DNA of 64,000 nucleotides, from the NCBI RefSeq assembly GCF_009930815.1, contig NZ_CP022222.1, forward strand, positions 1,964,501-2,028,500. Reading direction: 5' to 3'. The notes under the pieces are model-generated. The model did no database searches. It saw nothing but the letters and a program-made list of their open reading frames with translations, and was not told the DNA's origin. The DNA is from Bradyrhizobium sp. CCBAU 051011. Lineage in GTDB: Bacteria; Pseudomonadota; Alphaproteobacteria; Rhizobiales; Xanthobacteraceae. Below are positions 372-38,828 of this stretch, one piece after another. Each line of letters begins with the position of its first letter. Within the stretch, counting starts at the first letter, position 1. A program made the translations under genes and the position numbers.

Positions 372-3300
372 TCACTTTGATCGTCGACGCAAATTACGGG
401 CTGCTTCGATGTGCCAGGACATCCCCATTGCCTCAAACAGGCCCTCTGCCTGGTCTAGCAGTTCGGCTACGTGCTCATGTTCTCCGCGAGCAGCGCGCAT
501 CTCGGCGTCACAGAGCTGCGTGATCGCAATCTCATGGCGCGCTCCTCTGGCAAGAGCGTTCTTCATCGCCAGAGCGAGATATATTTCCGGCGAAGTCCGG
601 CCGTGTCCGGCAGCCGAGGCGCGAGCCATCGCGCGATAGGCCATGGCTTCGCCCAACCGATCATGCTGTCGACTGCGCAACACCGCGCGCGCCGCGTGAT
701 GCCTCGCCTGCTGCCATCGTTCACTTTCAACCAAGCCGTCTGCCAACCAACCATGATTCAACGAGACAAACAGTCCTCGATTACGCTTCTCAAGCCATGA
801 CGTGGCATCTACGATCGCCTGCAACGATTTCTGGGATCTTTGCGTCATCCAACTCGCATATCCGCCCAATGAAAGGCTCTGCGCATACAAATACAGGCTC
901 TTCACCCGCTCCGCGACATGCTGGCCCTTCACCGCGGATGTTCGCGCGTCCTCCCAGCGGCCCTGCCACAAGCTGACGGCGCTTCGCAAACATAAAACCG
1001 ATGCCTCAACCTCATGGCCCGAGTTCTGAACTGCATCCAATGCTTCCTCGAAACATGCGTGTGCCTGCTCGAACAGCCCACGGTCACCGAGCACCGATGC
1101 TTTGCAAGCCAACGAATAAGCAAGTGCAACGGCGGGCCGGCCGCTTTTGCGGAATTGGCGCTTTATCGAGATTGCCTCGTCAAGCAGTACGAGGGACTTG
1201 TCGTATTCCGCGGCCGCCGCGCAGGCCTGCCCCAATACCGCTTGAATTTGCACAGCAAGCGGTTCGTCGCCGACGGCCGTGGCACGCGCAAGCGCGGTTT
1301 CCAAACAGCTTGTAGCATAAGCCAGTTCCCCTAGCGCATAGTTGATATTTCCGACCCAGTATTCAGCCCGTGCAAGCGCGCGCTGATCCTGGCGAGCAGT
1401 CGCAAGGACGACGGCACGTTGCAGGAACTGAAGCTGATCCCTTGACGGATCAAATACGCAGGCCAAAGCCAGCCGTTGCGCGATAGAGAGCCAACGTTCA
1501 TAGTTTTCTTGAGAAGAATCCGGATCGAGAGCAGAGAGAGCAGCACCATATTGTATTTGGGCACGGTCCAAAGCCGAGGCGGCGGCCGCTTTATCTCCCG
1601 CGGCCTCAGCGTACTGAGCGGCCTCGACCACCTGCCCGCATGCGCCGTAGTGATATGCAAGTAGCTCCCAGGCTTCTTCTTGCGCGCCCGACGGCCCGTC
1701 TTCTTTCAGCGTGTCAGCGATACGTTTATGCAGTGCATTGCGCTGGCGCAGACCGACTGAGTCGTAGATCACATCGCGCGCAATGCCGTGCTTGAATCGA
1801 AGGGTTCCCGATTGCTCGCCAGGAAAAATGATATCTTGCACAGCGAGCGTTGCGACAAGTGGATGATTTCCCCCACAGCCAGTGAGCCTTTCAAGCAGCC
1901 AGATGGGAATGACATTGCCAATGACGGCTGCCGTGCGAACCAGATCAATCTGCTCGGGCTGCAGTCGCTCGACACGGGATTCTATGAGCTTGTCCAACCA
2001 CGCCTCGCCGATGTGAATGCGGCCAATGCGGTGGTGATGTGGACTGTCGTGAGCAACGGAGTGGCATAGCTCCTCAATAAACAGCGGATTGCCACCAGAG
2101 AGCTCCCTAATCTTTGTAACGGTGAAAGGATTGCTTCCAGGAACCAGTTGACGAATGATTTCCTCAGCTTCGTCGGCGCTGAAAGGGGCAAGGGTCAAGA
2201 TAGTCGCGTCACCGACTGCCACATTACCAGCACCAAGCTCGCGGCTTGCGACGAGCACGAACAATGTCCGATTATCAAGGCGTCTTATTGCTTCGAGTAC
2301 CTGACGCGACGCGGCGTCCGCCCATTGCCAATCGTCGATGAACAGCACCACAGGTTTCGAGGTGGCCAACACATCGAAAAGCTTGCATATTGCGGCAATT
2401 GTGTTTTCCGGAGCAACATTGCGCGCTTCCAATTGACTGTTCACGGGATCCAGCGAAAGAGCGCGCAGGAATTCAGGCCGATAGTTGAGGAGGTCGGGAT
2501 CGATCTCGCCGAGTGTTTTCTCGAGCACCTCAGCGGCGCGCGCAGCTGTCATTCCATGATCCAGGCCTAGCAACGATCGGAGAATCTGGAGGAATGGCTG
2601 TAAAGGTTCAGCGCTTAGATAGCTTTCGCAGTAGCCTCGCAGTATCCGGCAATCGGAATTTGCCGAGCCGCGGAGAAATTCCTCGACGAGCCGGGTCTTT
2701 CCCATGCCTGCTGGTCCAACGATAGCAACATATTGCGGCTTGTCTCTTATGACGTCGTAGAGGCTTCCCTTCAGAGCCTGGAGCTCGGTTTGACGGCCTA
2801 TGAAGGATGTTAGCCCCCGCATCGATCTGGCTTCGAATCGTGTGCCGACGGCAGCGCGACCGAGGATTCCGTAGACCGCGATCGGCGGGATTATCCCTTG
2901 AAGGTTGAGGGAGCGCCTGGGCGTGGTCGCATAGAAATGGCTTTCAGCACCTAGCGTCTCTTCGCTCACTATAATCTCGTCGCTTTGCGCAACGTCGGAA
3001 AGGCGCGCTGCAACATTTACAGCGTTGCCCAACAGATCAAGTCGTCCGTGAAGATCATCCCCATCGGCAAGAAGTACCAAGCCGGAGTGAATTCCGGTAT
3101 GCAAATACAGGGGCGGCAAGGTGCGGGGTGAGAGGTCGAGTGGAATTCTTCGAACGAATTCGTGAAGATCAAGTGCGGCCTCGGTCGCTCGGCGTCCATC
3201 GTCCTCATGTGTTTCCGGATAGCCGAAGCTAGCCAGTAGGCCGTCCCCCCGAATCTGGACAATCGTTCCACCATGCCTTGGGATGATGTCCTCATAGGCG

Positions 3301-3440
3301 CGGCGGAGGTGATTCAGCAGATCCGAAAAGTCTTCGGCCTCCATACCTGCCGCGAGGCGAGCAGAATCGGACAAATCCGAAAAGAGGATCGCAAGATATC
3401 TACGCTGTGATCTTGCCTCTTCCTGTCTTCGATTGGTCAT
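372..3440 (-). CDS. Class III nucleotidyl cyclase - AAA ATPase - TPR signalling protein
   Basis: About 1022 residues. The N-terminal class III cyclase domain has FSDLSDSARLA (first metal Asp) and RGDGLLASFG (second metal Asp), then LGNAVNVAARL. A P-loop ATPase follows, with Walker A GPAGMGKTRL and Walker B VVLFIDDWQWAD. The C-terminal half is helical and Ala/Leu-rich, as in TPR repeats. The family links a cyclase to a large STAND-type ATPase module, as in many soil bacteria. ATG at 3440 is chosen because the cyclase domain begins shortly after it; the frame stays open to 3542. It lies 174 nt downstream of the peroxidase-P450 gene on the same strand, so co-transcription is possible. Whether it makes cAMP, makes cGMP or is inactive cannot be read from sequence alone. 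Confidence 0.88.
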   Translation of the reverse strand: MTNRRQEEARSQRRYLAILFSDLSDSARLAAGMEAEDFSDLLNHLRRAYEDIIPRHGGTIVQIRGDGLLASFGYPETHEDDGRRATEAALDLHEFVRRIPLDLSPRTLPPLYLHTGIHSGLVLLADGDDLHGRLDLLGNAVNVAARLSDVAQSDEIIVSEETLGAESHFYATTPRRSLNLQGIIPPIAVYGILGRAAVGTRFEARSMRGLTSFIGRQTELQALKGSLYDVIRDKPQYVAIVGPAGMGKTRLVEEFLRGSANSDCRILRGYCESYLSAEPLQPFLQILRSLLGLDHGMTAARAAEVLEKTLGEIDPDLLNYRPEFLRALSLDPVNSQLEARNVAPENTIAAICKLFDVLATSKPVVLFIDDWQWADAASRQVLEAIRRLDNRTLFVLVASRELGAGNVAVGDATILTLAPFSADEAEEIIRQLVPGSNPFTVTKIRELSGGNPLFIEELCHSVAHDSPHHHRIGRIHIGEAWLDKLIESRVERLQPEQIDLVRTAAVIGNVIPIWLLERLTGCGGNHPLVATLAVQDIIFPGEQSGTLRFKHGIARDVIYDSVGLRQRNALHKRIADTLKEDGPSGAQEEAWELLAYHYGACGQVVEAAQYAEAAGDKAAAASALDRAQIQYGAALSALDPDSSQENYERWLSIAQRLALACVFDPSRDQLQFLQRAVVLATARQDQRALARAEYWVGNINYALGELAYATSCLETALARATAVGDEPLAVQIQAVLGQACAAAAEYDKSLVLLDEAISIKRQFRKSGRPAVALAYSLACKASVLGDRGLFEQAHACFEEALDAVQNSGHEVEASVLCLRSAVSLWQGRWEDARTSAVKGQHVAERVKSLYLYAQSLSLGGYASWMTQRSQKSLQAIVDATSWLEKRNRGLFVSLNHGWLADGLVESERWQQARHHAARAVLRSRQHDRLGEAMAYRAMARASAAGHGRTSPEIYLALAMKNALARGARHEIAITQLCDAEMRAARGEHEHVAELLDQAEGLFEAMGMSWHIEAARNLRRRSK

Positions 3441-3614
3441 CGCACTCACTGTGCCGCGTAAAGGGCTTCCTCTTGGGACGGCAGTTGGCAGCGGAAGCTC
3501 GCATCGCCAGATTGAGTGCCACGAACCTATACCTTTTTGCACATGCGTGCGAGCGCAGAAGTTCAGCCGCGAAACGGGAGGTGTTTGCGCGGTATTCGAG
3601 TGGCCCGCCGTGCG

Positions 3615-6600
3615 TCAGCCGCCGTTACGTAGGCTCACGGTCAGTTGCACGGGCGACATCGTCGGCCGCAGCCGGGTGAATTCCAGCAATCCGGCCAGCA
3701 TGCCTAGCATGACACCGATAGCCATCTTGTGGGCCGGGCAAGCATGGGTGGGGTGGTCCTTCTCGCTGCGCTTGCCGCCGAAGATGAGGTACAGGCCGTC
3801 ATCGTCGCCCTTGCTCAGGCATTCTTGCGTCGCGGAGACGATGCTCACCACGATTCGGTCGCCCGGACGGACCTCAACTGGCCCGATAAAATGCGGCACC
3901 AGCGCGGTACGCCACACGAGTTCTGGCACAGGACGCAACAGCAAGGTTTCCTCCAATTGCGGCATCAGGACCTGCCTGGCTCTCTCCAGGCGGTCCTCGG
4001 TTGCATCGGCCAGATAGGCGAGCTGATGGTCCCAAAGCGAGCGGTCGGTGATCCACTCAAGAAGCGCTCCACGGATATTGCCGTCGACAGTCGGAAGAAA
4101 TCCCATCATTACGCCGATCAGCGTGCTCGTACGCTGGTCCCCTTGATATCCCTCGAAGATCGCCTTCCCGAGTTTCCCCTGTGGTGTCCCGCCGGCTTCG
4201 AAGAACCTCCCGATCGCAGCTTTCAGCAGTTGGCCATGTTGCTGTCCTGCCAGGCTCGCCGGCGGTCCCGGATTGGGCTGGAACATGTAGCGCGACGGCG
4301 AGTGAAAGTGGCCGGGGCAGGTCGGAGGGCCGGCGGATCGCCAATCCCACCCCCCGCGCTCGACAAATTTGTCATCCGGCACGCCGAACCACTCGTTACT
4401 GATGCGCGCCAGAACGTCGTCCACGAAGTCCTTCACCTCCAGTCTTGTCTCGGCGCCGTCCGGGACGAGGTGATTCAGGGCATCCCGCGTATGCTTGAAC
4501 GCGCTCTCGAACCCATCTCGAATGGTGACACCCATGAGAGCGTCGTTGGCCGGGCGGGACTCCTTGCAGTAGCTCGACATGGGCAGCCCGTCATCGTCCT
4601 TGCCCAGGAAGATTTCGCCAAAGGAGGCCTTCATGCGCTCCGCATAGCCCGTCACCGTGTAGTGCCGGTCGCGGTTATTGAACACGCGATTGACCAACTC
4701 CTTGCTGCATATCAACACGCCATATGGCGTTCGGAGCACCCCTCCGTGCAACTCCCGTACAGCCGTCCACACCACCTGGCTGATGCCCGACGTACGTGCG
4801 GATAAATCCTCCAGCACGATCTTCCATTGCTCCGCCGCCGCGTCAAAGCCCTTGAATTGCTCGGCACGGCGCAGTTTGGCAATGAACTCCTCACCCCTGC
4901 GCGCCTCCATCGCCAGTCGCAAGGTGCGCTGATCTTCCTTCGTCTTGCGGTGGCGGTCGTCTGCGCCCTCCTCAATCTTCGCAGCCAGGTCTGCGATCGA
5001 CTTAAGTTCGGCGATCGCCTTGATCGACGGGACGAAGGCGTAGAGACCCCATTCCAGCTTGACGACCGGCCTTTCGGGATCCAGCTTCACGACTACCCTC
5101 GCTCCGCCGTTATCGTAAAAGACGAAGCTGTGCGGGTCGCCGTCGTGCGGCACACCGAGGAACGGGTCGCGCATGGCGGAGTACGTATTCTGGTTGCTGC
5201 TGTTGCTGCCGCTCAGCCAGGCCTGGATAATCTCGAACTGCTCGGCGATCGACGCATTATAGGCCATGAAAAACAAGCCGCGTTCGGCGTCGGCGTTCGC
5301 GCCATCGAAGGGTGGACCATACGACATACCTCGTCGCATGATCCGGGGCACGGTGCGAATGTCATCCCGAGGCTCCTCGGAGCGGATGCGTGGATTGGCG
5401 CGCCGCATATGGGACTGGAACGGGCATGCCATTCCATCCGGGTCTCTCGAATAGTCAAAGTCGTTGCCCTTCCTATCCGTGATCGTCTTGTCATCGATCA
5501 GGATTTCGCCGTCACTCGTACGGCCCATAAACTTCGCCTTTGTGCCCTTCGGGTCTTTGTTTTGTTCGAGCATAGCGTTCAGCGCTTTGACGTCCTGCTT
5601 CAGCTTGCGCACGACGAGAAAGGTGCTGTCATCCCACAGCTTGCCGGTCAGCGGCGGATCGCTGAGCGAGTTCCCGTATCCCAGCAACAAGTCGCCAGGC
5701 ACGATTTCGTCGGAATAGGTCCGCCTTTTCGGAGGAGCTCCGAGCGTTGGTTGGCTGATGCCATCCACGAAATCGAAGTGGCCCCTCGGACGGTCTTCGC
5801 GGGGCTTGAGGTAGCGCTGCATGCACTGCACCGAAAGGATCTGCACGCCCTTGCCGGAGAGCGCGCGATCGAACTGGCGGATCGCATCCGCCAGCGGATG
5901 CTTGCCGTTGGCGAGATCGTGCCATCGGTCGGACGGCCCTGCGCAGGTGTACTGGACGATCGCGTGGACCGTGGTCAGCTCCACGCGGTCGGACTCGTTC
6001 GGCCGCGGCCAATTGCGTTCAGGGAGAGACCATCTGGTCGGGTGATTGTAGAGCCGGTCGCCGAGAATACTGGCTCGCGCCGCCATACCTTCGCGGAACT
6101 CGAACGGCAGCAGCGCGAGGGTACCGTTCGGCACACCCGCGCGTGCCAGTCCCTGGAACGTGAATCCGAGGTTAACCCATGGGACTTTATTCGCTTCGCC
6201 CTGTGTGGCGGCGGTTCGCTTTATTTCCGGTTCAAGGTACGCGAGCATATCGCGCGCCGCCGCGGAGTCCTTGAGGGCGACCAGCAACAGACACGCGTGG
6301 GTGGCGCCCTCGTACTGGTCGATGATGCCGCCCTGGACGTTGTCCTTGCCGAATTCCGCTGCTGCGGGGCCAGAGGGATCGCGCGACCGCGATTTAGCGA
6401 ACCACCTCAGCGCTGCTCGTTCAGTAGGATTGCGCCCCTCTTTCGGGGCGGTCCCGCTGAGTTGCTCAGCGCGGTATCCCAGCAGATGCCTTGCGGCGCG
6501 CAGCAGAAAGTCACCGTCTGTTTCAAGCGGCGGATACAGATCGGTCAAGCGATACAGAGCGGTGAGGGCCGGAAGTGCCTGCTTCAGAATCAAATTGGGA

Positions 6601-7178
6601 TCGGCTTCCTCACGGTCGAGCGCAACGTCGTGCGGCCGCTCCTCGCCCACCCCATTCAGGTCCGTCGCGACCTTGCGCCGAAGATAATGCAGGTCGCTCA
6701 CTGTGAGCGAACTGGCGTTGTAGAAGAACTGAGTATCGACCTGCGCCGACCGAACCCAACCTGCGTACGCGGGGTAGTCGTGGCTGAAGGAGTCTAAGTA
6801 GCCTTCGCAGTTGCAGAAGATCACGTCCAACAGTGGCCCCAGATCGCGCCATATGCGGCGCATGTAAGGCTCCCACCCACCGTCGAATGCGACGGAAAGG
6901 AGAAGCCGCCTTGGCGGGTCTTCTCCGATAATCGCAAGTCGGAAGGAGTGAAGCGCCCGGATTCGGTCGACCGCGTCGCCGATCAGCGGCGTCGGTTCCG
7001 CCTCCACCGACGAAACACGCAACGCATTCAGGGTTCTCAGCAGCAGCCGCACCCGGGTTTCGTAGGTGCGCGAGTCCAGCGCCGGGATCAGCCCGGACTT
7101 GATCGTTGCCACCAGGGTAAGGTCGCTGACACCCAACAAGCTCAAGCTCTTCGATTTGCTCTGTACATCGATCTGCAT
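3615..7178 (-). CDS. DyP-type peroxidase / cytochrome P450 fusion
   Basis: 1187 residues, far longer than either family alone. Residues 1-250 form an unassigned N-terminal domain. A DyP-type peroxidase domain spans about 320-715: FDFVDGISQP with catalytic Asp472, proximal heme His590 in SHMRRANPR, and distal RRG near 616 before SYGPP. A P450 domain spans about 800-1187: RPVPELVWRTA, VRPGDRIVVS and heme-ligand Cys1147 in HPTHACPAHK. Two P450 hallmarks are altered. The K-helix reads ETLL where ExxR is expected, and the presumed I-helix segment (GFLPTVDGN) has no acid-Thr pair. That pattern is seen in P450s that rearrange peroxides rather than activate oxygen. ATG at 7178 follows a GAGGGG ribosome site. 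The patatin gene ends 39 nt upstream, so the two form a likely operon. The oxylipin-type role is inferred. Confidence 0.85.
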   Translation of the reverse strand: MQIDVQSKSKSLSLLGVSDLTLVATIKSGLIPALDSRTYETRVRLLLRTLNALRVSSVEAEPTPLIGDAVDRIRALHSFRLAIIGEDPPRRLLLSVAFDGGWEPYMRRIWRDLGPLLDVIFCNCEGYLDSFSHDYPAYAGWVRSAQVDTQFFYNASSLTVSDLHYLRRKVATDLNGVGEERPHDVALDREEADPNLILKQALPALTALYRLTDLYPPLETDGDFLLRAARHLLGYRAEQLSGTAPKEGRNPTERAALRWFAKSRSRDPSGPAAAEFGKDNVQGGIIDQYEGATHACLLLVALKDSAAARDMLAYLEPEIKRTAATQGEANKVPWVNLGFTFQGLARAGVPNGTLALLPFEFREGMAARASILGDRLYNHPTRWSLPERNWPRPNESDRVELTTVHAIVQYTCAGPSDRWHDLANGKHPLADAIRQFDRALSGKGVQILSVQCMQRYLKPREDRPRGHFDFVDGISQPTLGAPPKRRTYSDEIVPGDLLLGYGNSLSDPPLTGKLWDDSTFLVVRKLKQDVKALNAMLEQNKDPKGTKAKFMGRTSDGEILIDDKTITDRKGNDFDYSRDPDGMACPFQSHMRRANPRIRSEEPRDDIRTVPRIMRRGMSYGPPFDGANADAERGLFFMAYNASIAEQFEIIQAWLSGSNSSNQNTYSAMRDPFLGVPHDGDPHSFVFYDNGGARVVVKLDPERPVVKLEWGLYAFVPSIKAIAELKSIADLAAKIEEGADDRHRKTKEDQRTLRLAMEARRGEEFIAKLRRAEQFKGFDAAAEQWKIVLEDLSARTSGISQVVWTAVRELHGGVLRTPYGVLICSKELVNRVFNNRDRHYTVTGYAERMKASFGEIFLGKDDDGLPMSSYCKESRPANDALMGVTIRDGFESAFKHTRDALNHLVPDGAETRLEVKDFVDDVLARISNEWFGVPDDKFVERGGWDWRSAGPPTCPGHFHSPSRYMFQPNPGPPASLAGQQHGQLLKAAIGRFFEAGGTPQGKLGKAIFEGYQGDQRTSTLIGVMMGFLPTVDGNIRGALLEWITDRSLWDHQLAYLADATEDRLERARQVLMPQLEETLLLRPVPELVWRTALVPHFIGPVEVRPGDRIVVSIVSATQECLSKGDDDGLYLIFGGKRSEKDHPTHACPAHKMAIGVMLGMLAGLLEFTRLRPTMSPVQLTVSLRNGG

Positions 7179-7217
7179 GGCGCTTCCCCTCGTTCCCGAT
7201 CCTTGCGATTGAGTTCG

Positions 7218-9302
7218 CTAGAGTGGCGGCCGCACCCGCATGACCGGCCGCGGCAACGGCTTGTAGGGCTGCCCCACTGTCGGCAGGTTCAACGCACGCT
7301 CCGCCTGCATCAGGGCGTCCAACACGCCCTCCAATGCGGCCGCCTGCGCCGCGAGCAATTGCGAATCGTTGTCCGTTGCCGGCGCGGCTTCATCCTTGTC
7401 CTTTTTCAGTATTGGTTCGTCGATTGCCTGACGGATCAGGTCGCGAAGCGGCTTGCCGTTATCAGGCTGCGAGGCCGCCCAGGTCAGACCGGCCAGGCTC
7501 CTCGCCAGGCTGTCTCGCATTACATTGAGTCGCACCCAGCGATGCTCATTCCAGCCGTCCGACAGTTCACCGGAACTGCGCGCGACGGGGAAGGCATATC
7601 GCTTGATCAGCTTGAGTGCCGCCACCCGCCCCAGATCGGCCAGGCCCCTGATGTCCTGCTCCTTCATCAGGATGTTCAGGCCGCCGATCCCGCTACGCAG
7701 CCCCACCTGCACGACGCGTTCGCGCACCCCGGGCAGGCGAGCTAGCGTGGCGTCGCTCCAGTTAATCGTTGTCGATGCAAGCGCACTGAAGAAGCCGTAG
7801 AGCCTTTCGATAGGCTCGGGCTCGGTCTCGAACTCGTTCCAGTGGTCCTCCCCCAGCTGGAGGTGGTCTTTCGGCAACCACACGTCACCGTAATAATCTT
7901 CCTGCGCTTGCGTCGGCGGGGAAGAAGGGGCTTCCGCCGTCCCTTCCTTGCTCGTGGAAATCTCGTGCAGCGAGATGCCGAAAGTAGGCCAGGAGGGAAT
8001 GGGGCTGTCGAAGAGATGGATCGGAAAGTTCGAACAGATGCCGCCGTCGCAGAACAGGCAGCGCCTGAACACATGCTTCTTCTTGTCCCGCTTGTCCAGG
8101 ATCCAGAGCGGTACTGCGCTGAACAGGACCGGAAAGCTGATGCTCATGCGCGCGGCCACCAGGATCGGCAGGTGCTTTGTCGGCAGCCGATACATCGGCT
8201 CCTCACTGCTCCCAACGACCGGCGATTTGCCCATGAGGAGTGACCAAAGCCAGTGGAATCCACTGGAGGGAAAGGCTTTCGCACGAGGCGGCGCTGGCCG
8301 GGCAAGCCCTCGATACTCATTTGACCGGCCCGTGACCGGATCGACCTCCATGTCCCTGACCACATCGGGCGGGAAGAGCCGGCGCATCTCGCTCAAGCGA
8401 AAGTAAAGCTCGCGGTCATCCTCTTCGCCTTCATTCTGCGGAAAGACGTATGGACGCCCGTGGGTAACGTTGGCGGTGAACATCTGGAGATTGATCGAAG
8501 CGGCACCCACCGGGTTCGGATCGTTCAAGGTCTCCCGCGGCGAGCCCGGCGCGGCGGCGAGGTCTGCGAAGGTCAGCGGCCGGTCGTCTACTTTCCGCCC
8601 GGCAATCTCCTGGATGAGGCTGTGCAGCCAGTCAGTGAAGGGCGGGAGCCGCGCGTCCCCCGAGCGCGTGCCGCTGCACAAACCGTAGTCGTGCCGCACC
8701 ATACGTCCGACGTCGCGTACGATTAACACGAATACCGCGGCAACGCTCACAATGAGGGCGAGCATCGTCGCACTGAACCCAATCAGGAAAGCGAACAGCC
8801 AGTTGATGTCGCCTTGTCCGGCGCTCACGAGCGCGAGGAGCCAGACGATCGCGAGGGCGATCCAGATCGTCAGCACGATCCACGACTTTGCGTAGGCGAA
8901 AACGACGCCGCGTACCAACGCCGCCAGTTTACCGGTTGGCTTGGCGAAGCCGGGCAACAGCGCATCGAACAGACGCTTGTTTTCTTTCTCGGGTTGGAAA
9001 AGCCATGCGAGGCGCGTCTTGCCGTCTTTTTCCTCGGCGACAGAATCGGCGCGCTCCAGCATGATCCGGAAGCCGTCCGACGATCCGTGCCGACGCCGGT
9101 ATTCGGCGGCGGCGGCCAATGCTGCAGCGCCGGCGCCTGACGACGCTCCGCCGATACTGTTGAAGCGATAGACAGTCGCCAGCGCGAATATGGCCGGCGG
9201 ATAGGCAATCGAACTCGTGACGCCACCGGTGAGAATCAGATCGCAATAGCGATCTCTCGGCGCCCGATCATCGAAGCCAGGTAGCGGTTCCCTGGTGGAC
9301 AT
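7218..9302 (-). CDS. Patatin-like phospholipase with two membrane segments
   Basis: 694 residues. The patatin fold is shown by the nucleophile elbow GGASSGAG (GxSxG, Ser54) and the dyad Asp in CDGGICSNFP (Asp419), with SISFPVLFSAVPL before it. The usual oxyanion Gly-rich Arg is absent: the segment reads LTGGVTSSIAYP. Between the two catalytic halves lies an insert with two strong hydrophobic segments at about 140-160 and 168-195, so the enzyme is probably membrane-anchored. The family hydrolyses acyl esters of phospholipids or other lipids. The start at 9302 is preceded by GAGGAAG at ideal spacing and fits better than the earlier ATG at 9365. It is the first gene of the likely operon with the peroxidase-P450 fusion and could supply that enzyme with free fatty acid (inference). 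Confidence 0.87.
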   Translation of the reverse strand: MSTREPLPGFDDRAPRDRYCDLILTGGVTSSIAYPPAIFALATVYRFNSIGGASSGAGAAALAAAAEYRRRHGSSDGFRIMLERADSVAEEKDGKTRLAWLFQPEKENKRLFDALLPGFAKPTGKLAALVRGVVFAYAKSWIVLTIWIALAIVWLLALVSAGQGDINWLFAFLIGFSATMLALIVSVAAVFVLIVRDVGRMVRHDYGLCSGTRSGDARLPPFTDWLHSLIQEIAGRKVDDRPLTFADLAAAPGSPRETLNDPNPVGAASINLQMFTANVTHGRPYVFPQNEGEEDDRELYFRLSEMRRLFPPDVVRDMEVDPVTGRSNEYRGLARPAPPRAKAFPSSGFHWLWSLLMGKSPVVGSSEEPMYRLPTKHLPILVAARMSISFPVLFSAVPLWILDKRDKKKHVFRRCLFCDGGICSNFPIHLFDSPIPSWPTFGISLHEISTSKEGTAEAPSSPPTQAQEDYYGDVWLPKDHLQLGEDHWNEFETEPEPIERLYGFFSALASTTINWSDATLARLPGVRERVVQVGLRSGIGGLNILMKEQDIRGLADLGRVAALKLIKRYAFPVARSSGELSDGWNEHRWVRLNVMRDSLARSLAGLTWAASQPDNGKPLRDLIRQAIDEPILKKDKDEAAPATDNDSQLLAAQAAALEGVLDALMQAERALNLPTVGQPYKPLPRPVMRVRPPL

Positions 9303-9716
9303 TCGAACTTCCTCACTCGAACCACCGACACTACCGCCACTGCAGAATAGACCTGCCGTTGGCAACTCATGGTGAGCTAGTTCACATTCTGAGACTCATT
9401 TTGCGCTGCTACTGGAGATCAATGTGCGCCAGCCTTGGGCTTCGCCGTTTTCGCACTTGTTTAATTGTCCAGACACTATGGACCGTGTCTGACGGGCGGT
9501 TCGGTAGGGCTCATTCAGGCCCGCAAGGCGACTACAAAGGCGATATCGTCGGCTCGAATCTCGAATGACCTCCGGCGCGGAGAGCAAGGGCTCCAAATGC
9601 AAGGCGCTTCGGCCGTACTGGTCCAGGGATCAAGTGCGGCAAACGGACGAGTTCGTGGGCCAAAGCGCCGCTGAGCAAAGCAAGAAGGCCTTAATTTATT
9701 AGCTCTTTCGAGAAGC

Positions 9717-10294: not shown

Positions 10295-13200
10295 TCATCC
10301 CCGACAAAGGCCATCGGCAACATTATTGGCCTCGTTGGACTCCTGCACTTCAGTTGCTGCATCAACGATGATCTGGAACCCGCAGTCCGGGGTGAAGCAG
10401 CCCGATGGAATGGTTGCTGCGACGTCAACAGAATTGCCGGCCAGGATCATGGGCGTGTTGACGATGACGGGCGACACCGTCCCGCCAGTGAGGAAGTTCA
10501 CCGTGGTATGTGAGGCTCCCGCTGGAGCAACACCCTGATTCCTGACCGTGACCAGAAGTTTACCGCCGGCCGGATCTCGCCGGCAGAACCCCAACTTGCC
10601 AGCGTCCGGCTTTGGATTAACAGGCACTAGGTCCGGCTGACCCGGTGCCTGCGCAATAGCCCGCTCGCGGATTTGCACCACGTCGATGCTCGGAGTCGCA
10701 CTCAAGGTTCGGCAACATTCATCCTTGCCCCCCGTGCCGGTCGAATAGACGGCCGTTACATCAAGGCTGACGATGCTCCGGATGACCACAAAGCCCTCTA
10801 TATACGACGCAGGAAAACCGTTGGGAAAGAGTCGCTTTTTGACATCGAGGCAATCTACTGCCAGAGCCTCATCTTCGCGCAATTTATCATGGCTGATCGG
10901 TAGGATCTCGCCCGGACGCTGCTCGGCCGGCGGAAAGGTTAGCGCTAGCTTTTTCTTGAAGACAGCTGTTTGTGGGTTGGGATTGTGGACGTTGATGGTG
11001 GTCGCATACAGCCCACGTGCCAGTCGAAGATCGGCTGGATCGTCCTGGATCCCGCATACGAGTTTTGCAGCATACTCGAAACGCGGTTGCGGCGGCTCGA
11101 ACTCGGCCCGCCAGACACCTCGGCCCTGTGTGCCAATGTAGAGCTTCACGCGGTTGGCCGGCTCGTGGTCGAACTGCACGAACCATGGACGGGGCAGATG
11201 CGGCTTGCCGGACATTCCGGAGGAGATCGGATCTGTGATCACCGTCCAGCTGCTCCCGCCATCTGTGCTGAGAAATACTCCCGAATCGGCGCCGCCAGCT
11301 ACCAGGATATTAGGATCTTGCGGGTCGAAGGCGACGAGTGTCGGTTGGGGATAGCCGCCGAATCCCGTAAACGCGGTGGGACCGCGCCGGTTCTGGTACC
11401 GAAAGGCCCCTCCACCTGTCATGGCATTATCAAGGCCGGCATCGTTGACCCAAGTTGTCCCGCCATCAGTAGAGAACATCATGCGCGGCCCGGCTGCGGT
11501 CAGGTTCGAGGCGTAGAGCCTGTTCGGGTTGGCGGGGTCGACAGCAAAGATTCCGACACCCCCGCTTGGCAGATTGCTGTCGATCCGAACCCACGCACTT
11601 GCCGGGTTGGTTCCGACATACCTCCATAATTGATCGGGAGCCCGTCCGTCGCATGCGCCCGCCTCCACGAAAAACGTTGGCTGTCCGCCGGCCAAGGCAA
11701 CGCGGATGCCACATGCACCGGCTGGAGACGTAGCTGCTCCGATCTGAGTCCAAACTATCGGATTCGCTGTCACGTTGTTGGTGATGAACACGCCTTGCGT
11801 CGTAACCACGACGAAATCGGTCGGCCCGAAAGTCCCGACGACGTCGATAGGCCGGAAGCCTGGAATGATCCCCGGCGGATAAGTGTTTACTTCGGCTCCT
11901 CCTGCCATTCCGGGATTACGAAGAAACAGGCGGTTCGCAGGAGGAGGAGAGAAACAGCAGACAGTGTAGAGGACGCGCGCCGGATTGGAGCTGTCGTCGA
12001 AGGCGTCGCAACAATCCCGGTTCGTCCAGGTCGGACTTGGCGCCCCAGCATTGGTTGTTCCAAAGCTGCCGTTGTCTTGATTACCGAAATAGAGATCTTC
12101 GGCGAGCACGCCGGGTTGATCGGCACCCGCCAAAGCCCAAAGCCAGAGCGCATGCGGAGTGACATTGGGTTGCTGCCAGAATGGACGGTGGCAATCCGGG
12201 CTCGTCTCCCTGGTGTTGAAGTAAACACCGCCATCTGACGAGAAAAGGACGGGGCAGGCATTTTCGTTGACTCCCGGGGCGAACGCGATAGCCGCGACGT
12301 CGTCATGACCACCTGCGCTTCGCGTAAAGGGACCATCCCAGCCGGTCGGCGGCGTCGGCGGCAGCACAGTACCTGTCGTTGCCATCGGGCAACGAAGGCC
12401 GCCGCCGGAAGGATTGCTTCGACAGCCACCGCGATAAAGCCGCACATCGCCATACCAGAGATCGAAAGCCTGGGCCTCAGCGCCAGGCACCGTCCGAGCG
12501 TTTGTCTCCACAAAGGGAATACGGCCTTGGCGGCGTGAGTCAGGAGTGCCCAGTCGAACCCAGTTGGCTCCGCCGTTATCAGTCTCCCACACGTCTGCGC
12601 CTACAGCCGCAAACACGACGTCACGCTCGTGCGGAGAGGCTGCTATCGAGCATAGGCCGGACGGCAAACCGCTACCTGCAGTCCACGTAACCCCTGCATC
12701 CAAAGACCGAAAATGTCCGTCGTCCCCGCAGATGTCCACGACCCGACCGTGGTGTGCGACCACATCCCACACGTTGGTTGCAGGGTCATTCGGCGTCGGA
12801 TCGACAAAGGTCCAGGTTGAGCCAGCGTCATTGCTGATCGCGAGACCGCAATTCGTTCCAGCATAGACGCGGTCCGGATTCCGCCGGTCGATGCTGATGC
12901 CGAACGCAGACGGTTCTTCGCTGCGCGCTTGAATGCAGGCACCCGCTGGGGGAACGCTGCTGATTGGCCTCGTCCAGGTCGCACCGCCATCATTGCTGAC
13001 ATTGATGCCCGCTCGGCTGCCAAGGCGACCATCGTAGAACGAAGTGGCGATCACCCGCTGGGGCTGCTCCGGCAACACCTCGATATCCCAAGTAACAACC
13101 GGCAGATGGCCATCAAGCCGCGCCCAGGTCCGGCCACGATCTGTGCTCTTGTAGATGCCGCCCCACTCTGTCGCCGCATAGAACGTATTCGGGTCACGCT

Positions 13201-13393
13201 CTACTGAGGCTAGTCCGTTCACTCGGCCTCCGCTGGCGCCGTCCGGATCCGTTGGATGAAGCGTTGATTGATTGGGGTTGATGTCCGTGAACGAAACTTG
13301 GCCGAAAGCAGGAGTTCCGGCCATCAATGCACTGGAAAGCAGCCAAAGGCCAAGGACTCGATGGCCCACATTCGCAATAAAATCGCTCCACAT
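10295..13393 (-). CDS. Secreted BNR/sortilin-type beta-propeller protein with C-terminal CARDB domain
   Basis: 1032 residues. A signal peptide covers about residues 1-31 (hydrophobic core LGLWLLSSALMAG, cleavage near AFGQ). At least eight Asp-box style turns follow, for example STDRGRTW, SNDGGATW, SNDAGSTW, STDGGTTW and STDGGSSW, spread over about 50-740 as expected for one or two beta-propellers. The last about 110 residues resemble a CARDB adhesion domain (LLVTVRNQGVAPAG, EVQESNEANNVADG). The architecture suggests an exported, surface or extracellular binding protein. No glycosidase catalytic residues could be assigned. The start has AGGAG 8 nt upstream. It is the second gene of a pair with the fibronectin-like protein 75 nt upstream. 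Confidence 0.85.
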   Translation of the reverse strand: MWSDFIANVGHRVLGLWLLSSALMAGTPAFGQVSFTDINPNQSTLHPTDPDGASGGRVNGLASVERDPNTFYAATEWGGIYKSTDRGRTWARLDGHLPVVTWDIEVLPEQPQRVIATSFYDGRLGSRAGINVSNDGGATWTRPISSVPPAGACIQARSEEPSAFGISIDRRNPDRVYAGTNCGLAISNDAGSTWTFVDPTPNDPATNVWDVVAHHGRVVDICGDDGHFRSLDAGVTWTAGSGLPSGLCSIAASPHERDVVFAAVGADVWETDNGGANWVRLGTPDSRRQGRIPFVETNARTVPGAEAQAFDLWYGDVRLYRGGCRSNPSGGGLRCPMATTGTVLPPTPPTGWDGPFTRSAGGHDDVAAIAFAPGVNENACPVLFSSDGGVYFNTRETSPDCHRPFWQQPNVTPHALWLWALAGADQPGVLAEDLYFGNQDNGSFGTTNAGAPSPTWTNRDCCDAFDDSSNPARVLYTVCCFSPPPANRLFLRNPGMAGGAEVNTYPPGIIPGFRPIDVVGTFGPTDFVVVTTQGVFITNNVTANPIVWTQIGAATSPAGACGIRVALAGGQPTFFVEAGACDGRAPDQLWRYVGTNPASAWVRIDSNLPSGGVGIFAVDPANPNRLYASNLTAAGPRMMFSTDGGTTWVNDAGLDNAMTGGGAFRYQNRRGPTAFTGFGGYPQPTLVAFDPQDPNILVAGGADSGVFLSTDGGSSWTVITDPISSGMSGKPHLPRPWFVQFDHEPANRVKLYIGTQGRGVWRAEFEPPQPRFEYAAKLVCGIQDDPADLRLARGLYATTINVHNPNPQTAVFKKKLALTFPPAEQRPGEILPISHDKLREDEALAVDCLDVKKRLFPNGFPASYIEGFVVIRSIVSLDVTAVYSTGTGGKDECCRTLSATPSIDVVQIRERAIAQAPGQPDLVPVNPKPDAGKLGFCRRDPAGGKLLVTVRNQGVAPAGASHTTVNFLTGGTVSPVIVNTPMILAGNSVDVAATIPSGCFTPDCGFQIIVDAATEVQESNEANNVADGLCRG

Positions 13394-15106: not shown

Positions 15107-16078
15107 CTACCGGCCTCTCACTCGCAAGTTGACCGGGGCCTGTCCACCCTCTGTATCCAGGATGTAAGCTTTCACTCTGGGCAGAGCCCTCTCCATGGCT
15201 TCAAGATAGAGGCGGGTGCGCGTGAGTTCGGGGGCCTTCGCATACTCTTGCTGCAAAGCTTTGAGGCGAGTGGTCGTGCCTATGGCTTGCGCTATACGCT
15301 GCTCACGCCGGCTCTGCGCTGCCTGGACCAGTGTGTGCGCCTCCCCGCGAGCCTTGGGCAGAAGGTTGGCCGCATAGACCCGCGCCTCGTTGCGCGAGCG
15401 CTCGCGATCGGCCATGGCGTCCGCCACGTCTTGAAAGGCCTGTGCCACCGCCGCGTCAAGCGTCATGGCCATGATGCTGGAAGCCGTGATCTGAACCCCG
15501 CTTCGGTAGCGATCGAGGAGCTCCTGAGTCCGTATCTTCACTCTATCCTGGATGGCAAGCCGGCCTGTGGTCAAGACCTCATCAACCGACATGCCGGCCA
15601 AAACCTCTGTGAGCACACTTTCGGCAAGCCCGCCGATCAGTGCTCTTGTGTCTTCCACATGCAGCAGGAAGTCGGCAGGATCGCGTATCACGTATTGTAG
15701 CACGAGCGCGATGCTTAGGATGTTCGTGTCACCAGTCAGCAGCTCCATTCCAATCACGGTCTCCTGCTCGCCCTCGGGCAAAGCGAAGCCCACGCCGACT
15801 TTCGAGACACTTGTGGTCTTAAGCACATCGACCCGGTCGACGGGCCAGGGGAAACGCCAGTGCATGCCGGGGCCCAGGCGGGCATGGGGCGCGCCGAGGC
15901 GGCGCGCCAAAGCTTGCTCGTCCGTTGCGACGAGATGGAAGCCCGTGGCGAAGTAGGCCGCGATCAGCAGGAGCAAGAAGACGATACCGCCCCGGAGTGC
16001 GTAAGCGCGCCACCGCGGTTGCCTGGGGGCACTTTCCGCGCCGTCCTGTGGCACCACATGTTCGTGGCTGGCCGTCAT
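15107..16078 (-). CDS. HflK-like SPFH/band 7 membrane protein
   Basis: 323 residues. One N-terminal membrane segment (ALRGGIVFLLLLIAAYFATGF) precedes an SPFH domain: VATDEQALARRLG, GPGMHWRFPWPVDRVDVLKTT, SIALVLQYVIRDPADFLLHV. A charged helical tail follows with AKARGEA-like repeats near 240. The PWPVD motif and QYVIRDP are HflK-type. In the known system HflK and HflC form a periplasm-facing ring around FtsH; no FtsH is encoded here. Its start overlaps the upstream HflC-like gene by 4 nt (ATGA), so translation is coupled. It is the last gene of the five-gene operon 20928-15107. It is probably an accessory paralogue rather than the housekeeping hflK. Confidence 0.85.
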   Translation of the reverse strand: MTASHEHVVPQDGAESAPRQPRWRAYALRGGIVFLLLLIAAYFATGFHLVATDEQALARRLGAPHARLGPGMHWRFPWPVDRVDVLKTTSVSKVGVGFALPEGEQETVIGMELLTGDTNILSIALVLQYVIRDPADFLLHVEDTRALIGGLAESVLTEVLAGMSVDEVLTTGRLAIQDRVKIRTQELLDRYRSGVQITASSIMAMTLDAAVAQAFQDVADAMADRERSRNEARVYAANLLPKARGEAHTLVQAAQSRREQRIAQAIGTTTRLKALQQEYAKAPELTRTRLYLEAMERALPRVKAYILDTEGGQAPVNLRVRGR

Positions 16079-17109
16079 GGCGATTCCCCGCGTGACGGTG
16101 GCTGCTGACCTTCCACACCAGCGCCCACGGACTCGCCGTTCCTGGGACGAGCCTTGGGCGGCGGGCTAAGATCCCGCGCGACCGATGCGCTAGGCTGCAG
16201 CATCTGCAGGAGTTCGGACTCGGCCGGCAGGAACAGGGTCGTCTTGTCGTCGAGGATACGATCATAGGCCTCGAGCGTGCGGACGAGCTTGAAGAAGGGT
16301 AGGTCAGCGCCAAACTCGCGCGCGTAGACACGCATCGCCTCAGCGTCGCCTTCGCCGTCGAGTCGCCTTGCAAGTTCGTTGGCATCGGCGAGGATGCGTG
16401 CCTTCTGCCGATCAGCTTCGGCGATGATCCGCCTCGACTCGGCCTTCCCGTCGGAGCGCAGCTGCATGGTGATGCGGGCCCGCTCCGCTTTCATCCGCTC
16501 GAAGACGCTCTGCCGGTTTAGCTGAGGCAGGGCGAGTTCACGCACACCGAGATCGATCACCTCGATACCGTAGGCGGGCGCAACAAGAGCCTGAACACCG
16601 GCTCGTACCTCCGCGACTATGGCCCCGAACCGGTTCTCCGAAGCATGCGGCGCGATGAGGGAGGCGAAGCTGTGGCGGCCGAGCACTGCACCGACTTCAC
16701 CGACGATAGCCTCCGTAAGCCGCTGCTCGGCATCGTCGCGCGTGGCAAGCGTCGCGAGGAAGCGCGTCGGTTCGGCGATGCGCCAGGTAGCGAGCGTGGC
16801 AACGGACACGTTCTTCCGGTCCGCCGTGACGTACTCAACGGGCCGAGTGCTCAAGTATAGGAGGCGTTTGTCGAACCGCTGCACACGCTCGAAGGGCAGT
16901 TTGAAGCCTAGGCCCGGCTCTTCAACGAGTTGCACGATCCGGCCGAAGCGCGTGACCATCCCGTTCTCAGTGATATCTAACGTGAAGAGGCTCGCAAGGG
17001 CCGACAGAACCAGCACGGCGATAGCGGCAGGCGTCAGCACCCGGAGCGCCACCCTCCGTCTGCCGCCCGCGCGGCTCATCCTGCCAACTCCAGGGTGAGC
17101 TGCCTTCAT
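16075..17109 (-). CDS. HflC-like SPFH/band 7 membrane protein
   Basis: 344 residues. A membrane segment (ALRVLTPAAIAVLVLSALASLF) is followed by ENGMVTRFGRIVQLVEEPGLGFKLPF, TADRKNVSVATLATWRIAEPTRF and ERMKAERARITMQLRSDGKAESRRI. These are HflC hallmarks, the last being the long helix of the SPFH C-terminal region. The tail is proline-rich. The gene overlaps its neighbours on both sides by 4 nt and so sits in a coupled trio with the CDF-SPFH fusion upstream and the HflK-like gene downstream. Partnering as a hetero-oligomeric ring with those two is inferred. Confidence 0.86.
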   Translation of the reverse strand: MKAAHPGVGRMSRAGGRRRVALRVLTPAAIAVLVLSALASLFTLDITENGMVTRFGRIVQLVEEPGLGFKLPFERVQRFDKRLLYLSTRPVEYVTADRKNVSVATLATWRIAEPTRFLATLATRDDAEQRLTEAIVGEVGAVLGRHSFASLIAPHASENRFGAIVAEVRAGVQALVAPAYGIEVIDLGVRELALPQLNRQSVFERMKAERARITMQLRSDGKAESRRIIAEADRQKARILADANELARRLDGEGDAEAMRVYAREFGADLPFFKLVRTLEAYDRILDDKTTLFLPAESELLQMLQPSASVARDLSPPPKARPRNGESVGAGVEGQQPPSRGESP

Positions 17110-18839
17110 CGGTTGCCCCCCGCGCTGATCGGAGGATCAAGGAGCCAAAGGTCGAGGTCTTTGATGGCACTCGCCTTCGGCCGGACAAGCTTGTGCACCT
17201 TCGGCAACACGTCCTCGATCGTCTCCATCTGCAAGCGGAATGCGGCCAATTCGGGCGCTTGCCGAAATGCCTCGACCTGTAGGCTGAACGCCAGCGCCTC
17301 GCCGCGAGCGCGGCGGACCTGTTCCTCCTGGACGGCGAGGGCACCCTCGACCGTCGCCGCGGCCTCTCCTTTCGCTTCGTTTACCTCCTCGGCGGCGAAC
17401 CCCTTGGCGCGGTTGATCGTGCGCAGCTTGTCCTCTTGTGCACTAGCCACGTCCCGCTCGGCGTCGTGTGCCTCCTGGGGCGAATGCACGTAGACCAAGC
17501 GCACCGAGACGAGCGCGATGCCGGCGTTCAGACGATCTAGGCGCGCCTGAACGAACTCATGCAGTCGCGCCTCGACCTCGGCTCTGGCGTTTGTTAGCAA
17601 CGCGTCGATTCGCTGAGTGGCAACAACGCTGCGCAGCGCTGATCGAGTAAGGCTCCGGACGAGCGCCTCAGGCTCCGCCAGGTTTGTGACGTAGACCACC
17701 GGATCCCTGACGCGGTACTGCACGGTTAACCGAAGATCGATGAGGTTGGCATCACCGGTCAGGAGGAAGGACTCGCCCTCCAGCACCTCGCGCTGGAACC
17801 AGGAGCCCTTGGCCTTGATCGCCTCCGGCACTGGATTCGAGGGCCCGCCTACTGTGAGCCGCTCGCGGGCGAGTGTGCGCGTCGTCAAGCTCTCGTCCGC
17901 CTGACTGCGGAAACCGAGCTCTGCACTCCGCGTGCGTTCGGTTTCGACGAGACGGTGCGTCTCGATTGGCCAGGGCAGGCGGTAGTGTAGACCTGGGCCA
18001 AGGTCGGCCGCGACGATGCGAGCAAACCGGAGGCGCAGGCCGATCTCCCCGGACTGGATCGTAAAGAAGCCGCTTGCGAGCCAGAGGAGGACCAGGCTTG
18101 CCAATGCCCCGATCTTCACGCGGGTGTCAGTAACAAACACGCGGGTCGCGGGCGCAAACCTCTCGCGCAGCCGGACCCACTCCGGCGGCGCGTGCGAGTG
18201 CGGCACGTGCGTGTGGCGCGAGATTTCCCCGGTCCGGAGCTCACGCACCGCCTGTCGCAGGATTTGAGCGGATGACCACAGGAACAATCCCGCCATGATG
18301 GCGGCCACGATCAGGTCGGGCCACTTGGTCGCGGTTGCCCAAACGCCGATCGCAGCGAGCATCACGGCGACGTTGCCGATCGCATCGTTACGCGAGCAAA
18401 GCCACACGGACCGCACGTTGGCGTCGCCATCCTTGTAGCGCACGAGGATGACGACACTAGCCACGTTGGCAGCGAGAGCCAGGAAACCGATGGCGCCCAT
18501 GATCTCGGCGCGCGGCACACCGAGCACAAGCACGTGATAGGCGGTCGCCCCAAACACCCACAAGCCCATCAGCGTGAGGCTGACGCCTTTCACAAAGGCC
18601 GCACGCGCCCGGACCCGAACGGATGCACCGATGACCGCGAGGCTGATACCGTAGGTCGCCGCGTCGCCCAGAAAGTCGAGAGCGTCGGCCTGCAGCGCTT
18701 GTGAGCCGGCGAGTGCGCCGGCGCCCATTTCCACCAGGAACATCGCGGCATTGATTGCAATGACGATCCAAAGTCGCCGCTTGTAATCAGCCGACAAGCC
18801 TTCGAAGGTGGCGCCTTCTCCGCAACAGCCTACGCCCAT
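17106..18839 (-). CDS. Cation diffusion facilitator fused to HflK-like SPFH domain
   Basis: 577 residues. The N-terminal part (about 20-210) is a six-helix CDF transporter. Helix 2 carries DFLGD (DxxxD, as in FieF-type pumps) and helix 5 carries DAIGN, where HxxxD is usual. The normal CDF cytoplasmic dimer domain is missing. A His-rich linker, HTHVPHSHAP, leads instead to a seventh membrane helix and a full HflK-like SPFH domain (SGEIGLRLRFARIV, PGLHYRLPWPIE, LTVQYRVRDPVVYV, AKGEAAATVEGAL). The start at 18839 (MGVGCCGEG) avoids overlap with the acetamidase gene that ends at 18883; the frame is open to 18941. The HTH-H-H linker and the Cys pair near the start could bind metal. A metal-exporting SPFH ring is a hypothesis. 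Confidence 0.84.
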   Translation of the reverse strand: MGVGCCGEGATFEGLSADYKRRLWIVIAINAAMFLVEMGAGALAGSQALQADALDFLGDAATYGISLAVIGASVRVRARAAFVKGVSLTLMGLWVFGATAYHVLVLGVPRAEIMGAIGFLALAANVASVVILVRYKDGDANVRSVWLCSRNDAIGNVAVMLAAIGVWATATKWPDLIVAAIMAGLFLWSSAQILRQAVRELRTGEISRHTHVPHSHAPPEWVRLRERFAPATRVFVTDTRVKIGALASLVLLWLASGFFTIQSGEIGLRLRFARIVAADLGPGLHYRLPWPIETHRLVETERTRSAELGFRSQADESLTTRTLARERLTVGGPSNPVPEAIKAKGSWFQREVLEGESFLLTGDANLIDLRLTVQYRVRDPVVYVTNLAEPEALVRSLTRSALRSVVATQRIDALLTNARAEVEARLHEFVQARLDRLNAGIALVSVRLVYVHSPQEAHDAERDVASAQEDKLRTINRAKGFAAEEVNEAKGEAAATVEGALAVQEEQVRRARGEALAFSLQVEAFRQAPELAAFRLQMETIEDVLPKVHKLVRPKASAIKDLDLWLLDPPISAGGNR

Positions 18840-18882
18840 GTTCAGAGCCCTACGCTTCCTGAAGTCTCCATTTAGTGCAACC

Positions 18883-19917
18883 TCACCGCGGCAGGTACCG
18901 CTTGTCGAGTTGACAAGCCACGGAGTAATTTGGATCGACAACGTTGGCGATCTCGAGCTGCGCTGCTTGGCCTAGAAGCTGAACCGCCTCGATCTTGTCG
19001 TAGCCGTGATCCTGCACCAGCCAGTTGACGAGATCGACGCAGGCGATCCGCAGCGCATCGATCAACGGCCGCGTGCTGCCGATCGACATGATCATTCTGT
19101 CGTTCTCTAGCCGGGGCCAGTTGATCTTTTTTCCCTTGATGAGATTCACCGTGAAGGTGACGTCAAACGAGGTCTCGATAGCGGCGCCGTCCACCTCGCC
19201 GTCACCCTGCGCGGCGTGCCCGTCGCCCAGCATGAAGAGCGCACCCGGCTCGAAAACCGGGAAAGACATCGTCACACCCTCAACGACCTCATTGAAGTCC
19301 ATGTTCGCGCCATGAGGGCCAGGTATAAGCGAACTGATGCATTCCTTGCCAGGAGGTGCAGTGCCGATTGTCCCGAAGAATGGCCGCAATGGGACCTCGA
19401 CTTTGCCGATTTTGCTGTTGGGCAGGTCGAGCACACCGACCATCCTCGATCTGTCGAATCGCCAGATAAAGAGCCGGTCCGGCACCGGGTCAGTTATCAT
19501 CGCCGTCTTGTATTCGGGCGCCAATGCTCCGAAGTAGGGGATCGAAGCTCCCCAGCCCCAGTCTCTGTTGAGCCCGATCCTGTCGATACGCACGACGAGC
19601 GTATCGCCGGGCTCAGCGCCCTCGATGAAGAATGGCCCAGTCTGCGGGTTGACTCTGGTAAGGTCGAGCCTCGGAAACACCGTCTTGTCGGTCGGCTGGA
19701 AGACGTCGTTCGCCGCGTCCTTGGTCCTTGTGATCACCGTGTCGCCTGGCTTGATGCGGATCGCAGGTGGATGCGCATGGCAATAGGTGAAGTAAACAGT
19801 GTCTCCCGGGTCATAGCGGACTTCCGCGGCCGAGGCAGGTGCGATTCCAATAACTACGAGTGCCGAAGATAGAGCCACGATCGCCGCTCGTGCCGACTGC
19901 TCGCTCATTCGAATCAT
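18883..19917 (-). CDS. Secreted acetamidase/formamidase family protein
   Basis: 344 residues. A signal peptide (IVALSSALVVIGIAPASA, cleavage after ASA) is unusual, because most FmdA/AmdA enzymes are cytoplasmic. The rest matches the acetamidase/formamidase fold: HAHPPAIRIKPGDTVITRTKDAANDVFQ, PGDTLVVRID, GPHGANMDFNEV and LGDGHAAQGDGEV. The family hydrolyses short amides to acid and ammonia. The start at 19917 has AGGAGG 6 nt upstream, the best ribosome site in the operon. It lies between two SPFH genes on the same strand (33 and 43 nt gaps). Its link to SPFH and CDF proteins is unexplained. The substrate is unknown. Confidence 0.85.
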   Translation of the reverse strand: MIRMSEQSARAAIVALSSALVVIGIAPASAAEVRYDPGDTVYFTYCHAHPPAIRIKPGDTVITRTKDAANDVFQPTDKTVFPRLDLTRVNPQTGPFFIEGAEPGDTLVVRIDRIGLNRDWGWGASIPYFGALAPEYKTAMITDPVPDRLFIWRFDRSRMVGVLDLPNSKIGKVEVPLRPFFGTIGTAPPGKECISSLIPGPHGANMDFNEVVEGVTMSFPVFEPGALFMLGDGHAAQGDGEVDGAAIETSFDVTFTVNLIKGKKINWPRLENDRMIMSIGSTRPLIDALRIACVDLVNWLVQDHGYDKIEAVQLLGQAAQLEIANVVDPNYSVACQLDKRYLPR

Positions 19918-19950
19918 AGATTCCTCCTTTTTTGGCAGCGTAGATTGTTG

Positions 19951-38809: not shown

Positions 38810-38828
38810 TGGCGGAGAGGGAGGGATT
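38810..38828 (+). repeat. att core at the tRNA-Ser 3' end (right junction of the island)
   Basis: tggcggagagggagggatt (plus strand) is the reverse complement of the last 19 nt of the tRNA, CCA included. It repeats exactly at 9717-9735 and with one mismatch at 135-153. The island lies to the left, the tRNA body to the right. Confidence 0.9.

Follow-up and report, generated by a model that had tools for sequence, protein, structure and literature searches.

The 64,000-nt stretch of Bradyrhizobium sp. CCBAU 051011 analyzed here (hereafter the window; the genome is a single contig of 9.10 Mb) encodes a protein that joins a dye-decolorizing peroxidase (DyP) part to a part with the cytochrome P450 fold. 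The recurrence of this fusion across several genera is more than chance, and the fusion is tightly coupled with a STAND-type nucleotidyl cyclase. The cyclase is the constant partner of the module, and the lipase that accompanies the fusion in the window is its variable part. We tentatively propose, giving it somewhat less than an even chance, that the double-heme fusion would oxidize a substrate with peroxide or rearrange a hydroperoxide, and that the co-inherited cyclase would signal the outcome.

Architecture of the DyP-P450 fusion

Three genes, located as open reading frames read from the letters, lie in a row on the minus strand of the window. The fusion (3615-7178, 1187 aa) is preceded by a patatin-like lipase (7218-9302 from ATG, 7218-9365 from TTG) at a distance of 39 nt, and followed by a class III nucleotidyl cyclase with AAA/STAND-like ATPase and TPR parts (372-3542, 1056 aa from GTG), 72 nt away when counted from the earliest start that the cyclase frame allows. 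An initial annotation had described the first two genes as a pair; its reading frames, gap and residue numbers were reproduced here, and the cyclase gene was absent from that pair.

The N-terminal domain of the fusion (residues 1-260, 6399-7178, minus strand) is conserved across 12 aligned fusions. No Pfam family was found for the window copy, and other members gave single weak matches only; the AlphaFold2 model of the domain was poor (predicted local distance difference test score 61), and a fold search with it returned no match at E ≤ 0.001. The DyP part (residues about 261-735, 4974-6398, minus strand) matches PF20628 above the cut-off (E 6e-8) and scores 91.2 bits against TIGR01413, below its cut-off of 100.5. 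Solved DyPs matched it in a PDB search, the best being 8re3 (E 5.6e-28). The distal Asp472 (codon 5763-5765, minus strand), the proximal His590 (codon 5409-5411, minus strand) and the distal Arg are each invariant in 33 of 33 aligned rows, among which L018 and L079 probably represent a single gene, and from which the split L020 was left out. The peroxidase assignment of the initial annotation, with its two named residues, was thus borne out.

For the C-terminal part (residues 745-1187, 3618-4946, minus strand), PF00067 gave no match, although the genome holds 20 PF00067 matches (0 in the window), and a PDB profile search with four sequences did not recognize it as a P450. The AlphaFold model of this part was found to have the P450 fold in a PDB fold search. 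When its profile was compared with 15 P450 frames from the own genome, which had been chosen by a Cys-loop and ExxR motif filter, the match had a probability of 97.3% (E 1.6e-11) and put Cys1147 (codon 3738-3740, minus strand) on the heme Cys of these frames. Where sequence models had failed, structure and profile comparison thus established this part as a P450, in agreement with the P450 and Cys1147 proposed initially.

The heme-ligand context FGxG..HxCxG is present in the P450 rows (FGG...HPTHACP in the window), with F-G-G, His and Cys each in 36 of 36. Two textbook motifs are missing from the same rows. Helix-K ExxR was not found, the Glu place being Met or Leu in 36/36; within a 23-column stretch an E..R occurs in a single row of the 36 (L017), where it is placed later, on a strand. 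Rare P450s without ExxR exist (CYP157). The helix-I acid-alcohol pair is likewise absent: at the expected site (Pro1029-Thr1030 in the window, codons 4089-4094, minus strand) the acid place is Pro in 35 rows and Ala in one, with Thr in 32/36, and in an alternative register the acid place is Ile in 20, Leu in 12 and Val in 4. Nor was the CYP152-type Arg-Pro of helix I found, as Arg stands at neither place and Pro in 35/36. Loss of the acid of the O2-activation pair fits peroxide or hydroperoxide chemistry (PMC5818669), and judged from these residues the P450 of the fusion probably no longer activates O2. A ferredoxin motif scan gave 11 matches, none convincing by eye.

The constant cyclase and the variable lipase

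The breadth of the family was taken from genome and contig scans. The contig scan with the P450 alignment gave 13 loci, seven of them from Bradyrhizobium (two being metagenome-assembled genomes, MAGs) and the remainder from a Xanthobacteraceae MAG, a Hyphomicrobiaceae MAG, Variovorax, Xenophilus, Erythrobacter and Phenylobacterium; a Sphingopyxis sp. DBS4 locus was added through a plasmid search. Among named organisms, Bradyrhizobium carries the closest relatives of the window locus. Among sampled genomes, the P450 was present in 29 of 265 of the genus and in 2 of 385 taken from the class, own genome included. The phylum sample gave matches in 3 of 398, namely the own genome, G112 and G852; the last (E 6.5e-6, 26 bits) had no module match on its fetched stretch L083 and was discarded as a likely ordinary P450. 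Five of 249 genomes matched at E ≤ 1e-30 in the order sample, where G036 and G171 had the DyP part only and were not used. After removal of duplicates 37 loci remained. A usable P450 row was available for 36 of them; the other is G419, in which the gene is divided between contigs.

The cyclase of the window matches PF00211 (2.4e-15), PF13191 (3.5e-25) and PF13424 (4.5e-9). The AAA_16 and TPR models score above cut-off and the nSTAND models below, and the P-loop Lys is present in 35/35 rows. Both metal-binding Asp residues and the transition-state Asn and Arg are kept in the window copy; across the module cyclases the metal Asp residues are found in 35/35 and 35/35, and the Asn in 33/35.

The downstream side could be assessed in 36 of the 37 loci (the contig of L071 ends too early), and in 35 of these 36 a cyclase-STAND-TPR gene neighbors the P450 gene. 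Nine of the 35 pairs are co-directional and 26 convergent; hence the link outlives changes of operon structure. At E ≤ 1e-90 the window-type cyclase was detected in 27 of the 265 genus genomes, each of which belongs to the 29 that have the P450, in a search that scored the best two first-look candidates per genome for the cyclase and the best six for the P450. The two other P450 genomes, G409 and G415, carry a standalone P450 only. Within the own genome the cyclase-STAND protein has 44 matches, ten of which (own copy included) span the cyclase and ATPase parts in frames of more than 1000 aa. In a tree of 44 cyclases, 32 of the 35 module cyclases form one clade (support 100/100) apart from nine own-genome paralogues, and the cyclases beside three Bradyrhizobium standalone P450s fall among the paralogues. 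These standalone P450s are thus paired with a cyclase that is built alike but belongs to a different lineage, and this speaks for a functional need. In L007, L019 and L020 the cyclase has a Crp/Fnr regulator directly beside it, and in L017 one lies a single gene away; a cyclic-nucleotide-monophosphate (cNMP)-binding domain was present in both Crp/Fnr regulators scanned.

L077 shows another arrangement. Its cyclase lies 2.4 kb from a standalone P450 with a DyP-like gene in between (7005-8384, minus strand), so that the parts fused elsewhere are neighbors there; Pfam gave no family for the stretch of this gene scanned.

The patatin of the window matches PF01734 above the cut-off (E 1.6e-11) and has the oxyanion loop, the GxSxG Ser and the dyad Asp of a predicted lipase, together with two hydrophobic segments mid-protein by hydropathy. 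Ser54 and Asp419 (75 and 440 from TTG), the residues named in the initial annotation, are invariant in seven aligned copies including the window. A patatin directly upstream of the fusion defines type A, which comprises eight loci: the window, five others of the genus, Variovorax soli and Xenophilus azovorans (the patatin frame of L058 is broken). The P450s of these eight loci form one clade (97/95) that spans alpha- and betaproteobacteria, which suggests joint transfer. In type C (nine P450 rows plus G419) a GDSL/SGNH domain is fused behind the P450. PF13472 was matched in 8/8 domains scanned, with a best E of 3.2e-9, while the first type C member (E 0.0012) stays below the curated cut-off; the GDS, GGND and His blocks occur in 9/9 domains inspected, and L071 holds only a short piece of the hydrolase domain before its contig ends. 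The 11 loci of type B are nested inside type C in the P450 tree, and type B appears from this placement to have lost the GDSL/SGNH domain. Type D consists of the four standalone P450s, type E of the Sphingopyxis, Erythrobacter and Phenylobacterium loci, and L082 stands apart.

A lipolytic protein was therefore found in 18 of 37 loci, as patatin in eight and as fused GDSL/SGNH domain in ten. The window patatin subfamily (at least 70% identity) occurs in 6 of 265 genus genomes, and all six also carry the fusion module, so the pairing is not random. The two-gene pair put forward initially accordingly recurs in other genomes, but only eight of the 37 loci have the patatin. More distant patatins in eight further genus genomes (E 1.0e-37 to 8.3e-17) showed no module gene on their stretches and were not counted; three of the eight contigs were only 4.8-6.3 kb long, and one of the eight genomes, G419, carries the module at another place.

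Apparent frameshifts, splits or single stop codons were noted in L058 (4742-7007), in L020 (6990-11053 and 11123-14019), in the cyclases of G437 and G288 and in the P450 of G415. These broken module genes possibly reflect decay or sequencing error.

Proposed mechanism and competing explanations

In the mechanism we favor, a lipase (patatin or the P450-fused GDSL/SGNH domain), where present, would release an acyl chain. The DyP domain, supplied with H2O2 or a lipid hydroperoxide, would then yield an oxidized intermediate or set the peroxide supply, and the P450, with its Cys thiolate and no acid-alcohol pair, might convert the intermediate in the manner of a peroxygenase or hydroperoxide isomerase. 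In the cyclase, the TPR/STAND part would sense the product or the state of the enzyme and trigger formation of a cyclic nucleotide, which in some lineages the adjoining Crp/Fnr regulator, linked to it by gene pairing, may read. The initial annotation had proposed an oxylipin-type pathway from a lipase and a double-heme enzyme. The kept heme-binding residues, the lost helix-I acid of the P450 and the recurring lipolytic enzymes speak for it, the lack of both lipolytic proteins in 19 of 37 loci against it; we infer that the idea survives as the leading chemical guess, with a lipid substrate where a lipase is present. Whether the co-inherited module is a bacterial counterpart of the animal eicosanoid cascade, running from a lipase through an oxidized lipid mediator made by the double-heme enzyme to a STAND receptor-cyclase that turns it into a cyclic-nucleotide signal, is more doubtful.

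Several observations weigh against the proposed mechanism. Neither patatin nor GDSL/SGNH domain was detected in the 19 loci of types B, D, E and L082, with other lipase families outside the scan and about 7 kb of upstream sequence covered for the 11 type B loci; hence the lipase is not essential. Four loci (L077, L016, L076 and L017) have the P450 with no DyP fusion, and a separate DyP-like gene near the P450 was detected in L077 and in none of the other three, so a two-step heme relay is not obligatory. We know of no DyP acting as a fatty-acid dioxygenase. A conserved [ED]xxxR follows helix K in the P450 rows (Glu in 27 and Asp in 7 of 36; EVWR in L017) and may be a displaced ExxR, although the model sets this motif on a strand. 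At the transition-state Arg position, 13 of the 35 cyclases have Arg, 21 have His and one has Gly. Some module cyclases may thus be weak or inactive, with activity differing among types, and the residues cannot tell which nucleotide would be made. L013 (genome G112) is an exception to the coupling, having an unrelated gene downstream and its cyclase on another contig. Finally, the paralogues in the cyclase tree come from one genome, the tree carries a long-branch warning, and counts from related genomes are not independent.

The constancy of the STAND-cyclase beside variable lipases would also suit a DyP-P450 fusion that is not biosynthetic and acts as a heme sensor of peroxide, NO or CO, controlling the cyclase by contact, and so would the loss of ExxR and of the helix-I acid. 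We consider this rather unlikely, because the three DyP catalytic residues are kept in all 33 rows, lipolytic enzymes recur in two unrelated forms, and the fold of the P450 part is one seen in enzymes that possess a substrate pocket. Peroxide-driven tailoring or detoxification of a substrate other than a lipid (an aromatic compound, a terpenoid or a natural product), under the control of a dedicated STAND-cyclase, is unlikely as well. DyPs and P450s often act on aromatics, types B and D show neither lipolytic protein, and a glutathione-transferase-like gene, as read from sequence, lies upstream of the standalone P450 of L017. However, a patatin or fused hydrolase accompanies the P450 in 18 of 37 loci, and no neighbor family besides fusion and cyclase occurs in more than 5 of 22 loci (families unannotated).

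An anti-phage or abortive-infection system, with a STAND sensor, a cyclase and membrane-damaging lipase and oxidase effectors, seems to us improbable. Defense systems are known to include STAND ATPases, patatins and class III cyclases (Pycsar), PADLOC matches the cyclase domain, and that domain only, to PycC (E 1.2e-13), and the spread is patchy (29/265 genus genomes), with one copy on a plasmid. Yet patatin and fusion had no PADLOC match at E ≤ 0.01, the flanking genes scanned (BNR, Band-7; BTAD, S8 peptidase, exporter) are no known defense genes, and none of those scanned in the own genome has a cNMP-binding domain. That the neighborhood is an accident of shared ancestry with no joint function is very improbable. 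Most loci do belong to one genus and are related by descent, but the same partners are met in altered gene orientation in Comamonadaceae, Erythrobacter, Phenylobacterium, Sphingopyxis and Hyphomicrobiaceae, and both the other cyclase lineage beside standalone P450s and the 27/27 co-occurrence speak against accident.

Surrounding genes and relation to known systems

Upstream of the patatin the window encodes a large protein in which Sortilin/BNR repeats are combined with a CARDB domain (10295-13393, minus strand), then a run of four Band-7/SPFH proteins (15107-20928, minus strand), one of which also has a cation-efflux domain; an acetamidase/formamidase-like gene lies amid this run. A single tRNA-Ser (CGA) gene is found at 38810-38899 (minus strand). 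In place of a Crp/Fnr regulator, the cyclase of the own genome is followed, just outside the window and at a distance of 872 nt, by a BTAD-type regulator; a large S8 peptidase and exporter genes of the HlyD/FtsX-MacB kind also lie on this stretch (L175, 1670-9500). Of the 37 locus records searched, only one (L009) has the BTAD gene again, which places it outside the module core. S8 peptidases are near the module also in L007 and, by sequence similarity, in L009. On the Sphingopyxis plasmid (L007, 8938-26379) the fusion is N-terminally shortened behind a Tn3 transposase, with the S8 peptidase, type I secretion genes and a toxin-activating lysine-acyltransferase further on.

The mycobacterial protein Rv0386 is a class III cyclase-AAA protein in which the cyclase precedes a STAND-like ATPase. 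Unlike Rv0386, the window cyclase has a TPR C-terminus and a constant pairing with the heme fusion. The oxylipin system of Pseudomonas aeruginosa uses other enzymes and a LysR-type regulator, with no P450, DyP or cyclase. Its diol synthase/OdsR signaling (PMC6377657) resembles the present case in concept only, as bacterial oxylipin signaling.

The DyP part is like known DyPs (PDB 8re3, 7anv, 4g2c) in sequence, distal Asp (DFVDG in the window), proximal His and distal Arg; unlike them, the fusion adds an N-terminal domain and a C-terminal P450. DyP-PFL fusions (PMC5041501) also join a DyP to a second catalytic domain, there a glycyl-radical domain and here a P450. Like CYP152 (PMC5818669), the P450 has lost the helix-I acid-alcohol pair and carries a Pro at this position or beside it, in keeping with the use of peroxide. 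It differs in having no carboxylate-binding Arg and no helix-K ExxR and in being fused to a DyP; other CYPs head the Z list of the fold search, a ranking that excludes nothing.

Fungi have peroxidase-P450 fusions with a peroxidase of a different superfamily (PMC5041501, PMC4420034). Membership in the fungal Ppo/linoleate diol synthases was rejected, since the peroxidase part matches DyPs and not the peroxidase-cyclooxygenase superfamily. Of the Ppo likeness suggested initially the overall plan remains; the fusion here is bacterial, has a DyP peroxidase from another superfamily and is paired with a STAND-cyclase. Neither a DyP-P450 fusion nor its pairing with a cyclase was recognized among the open-access papers that the searches listed, subscription papers and preprints lying outside the search.

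If the proposed reading is true, a double-heme enzyme made of peroxidase and P450 would have arisen in bacteria independently of the fungal ones and from a different peroxidase superfamily. The family would also represent a line of P450s in which two textbook motifs are missing and which is wired to a second-messenger cyclase, and it would add a P450 family overlooked by the standard Pfam model. Lipid-oxidation signaling would then become testable in a manipulable genus.

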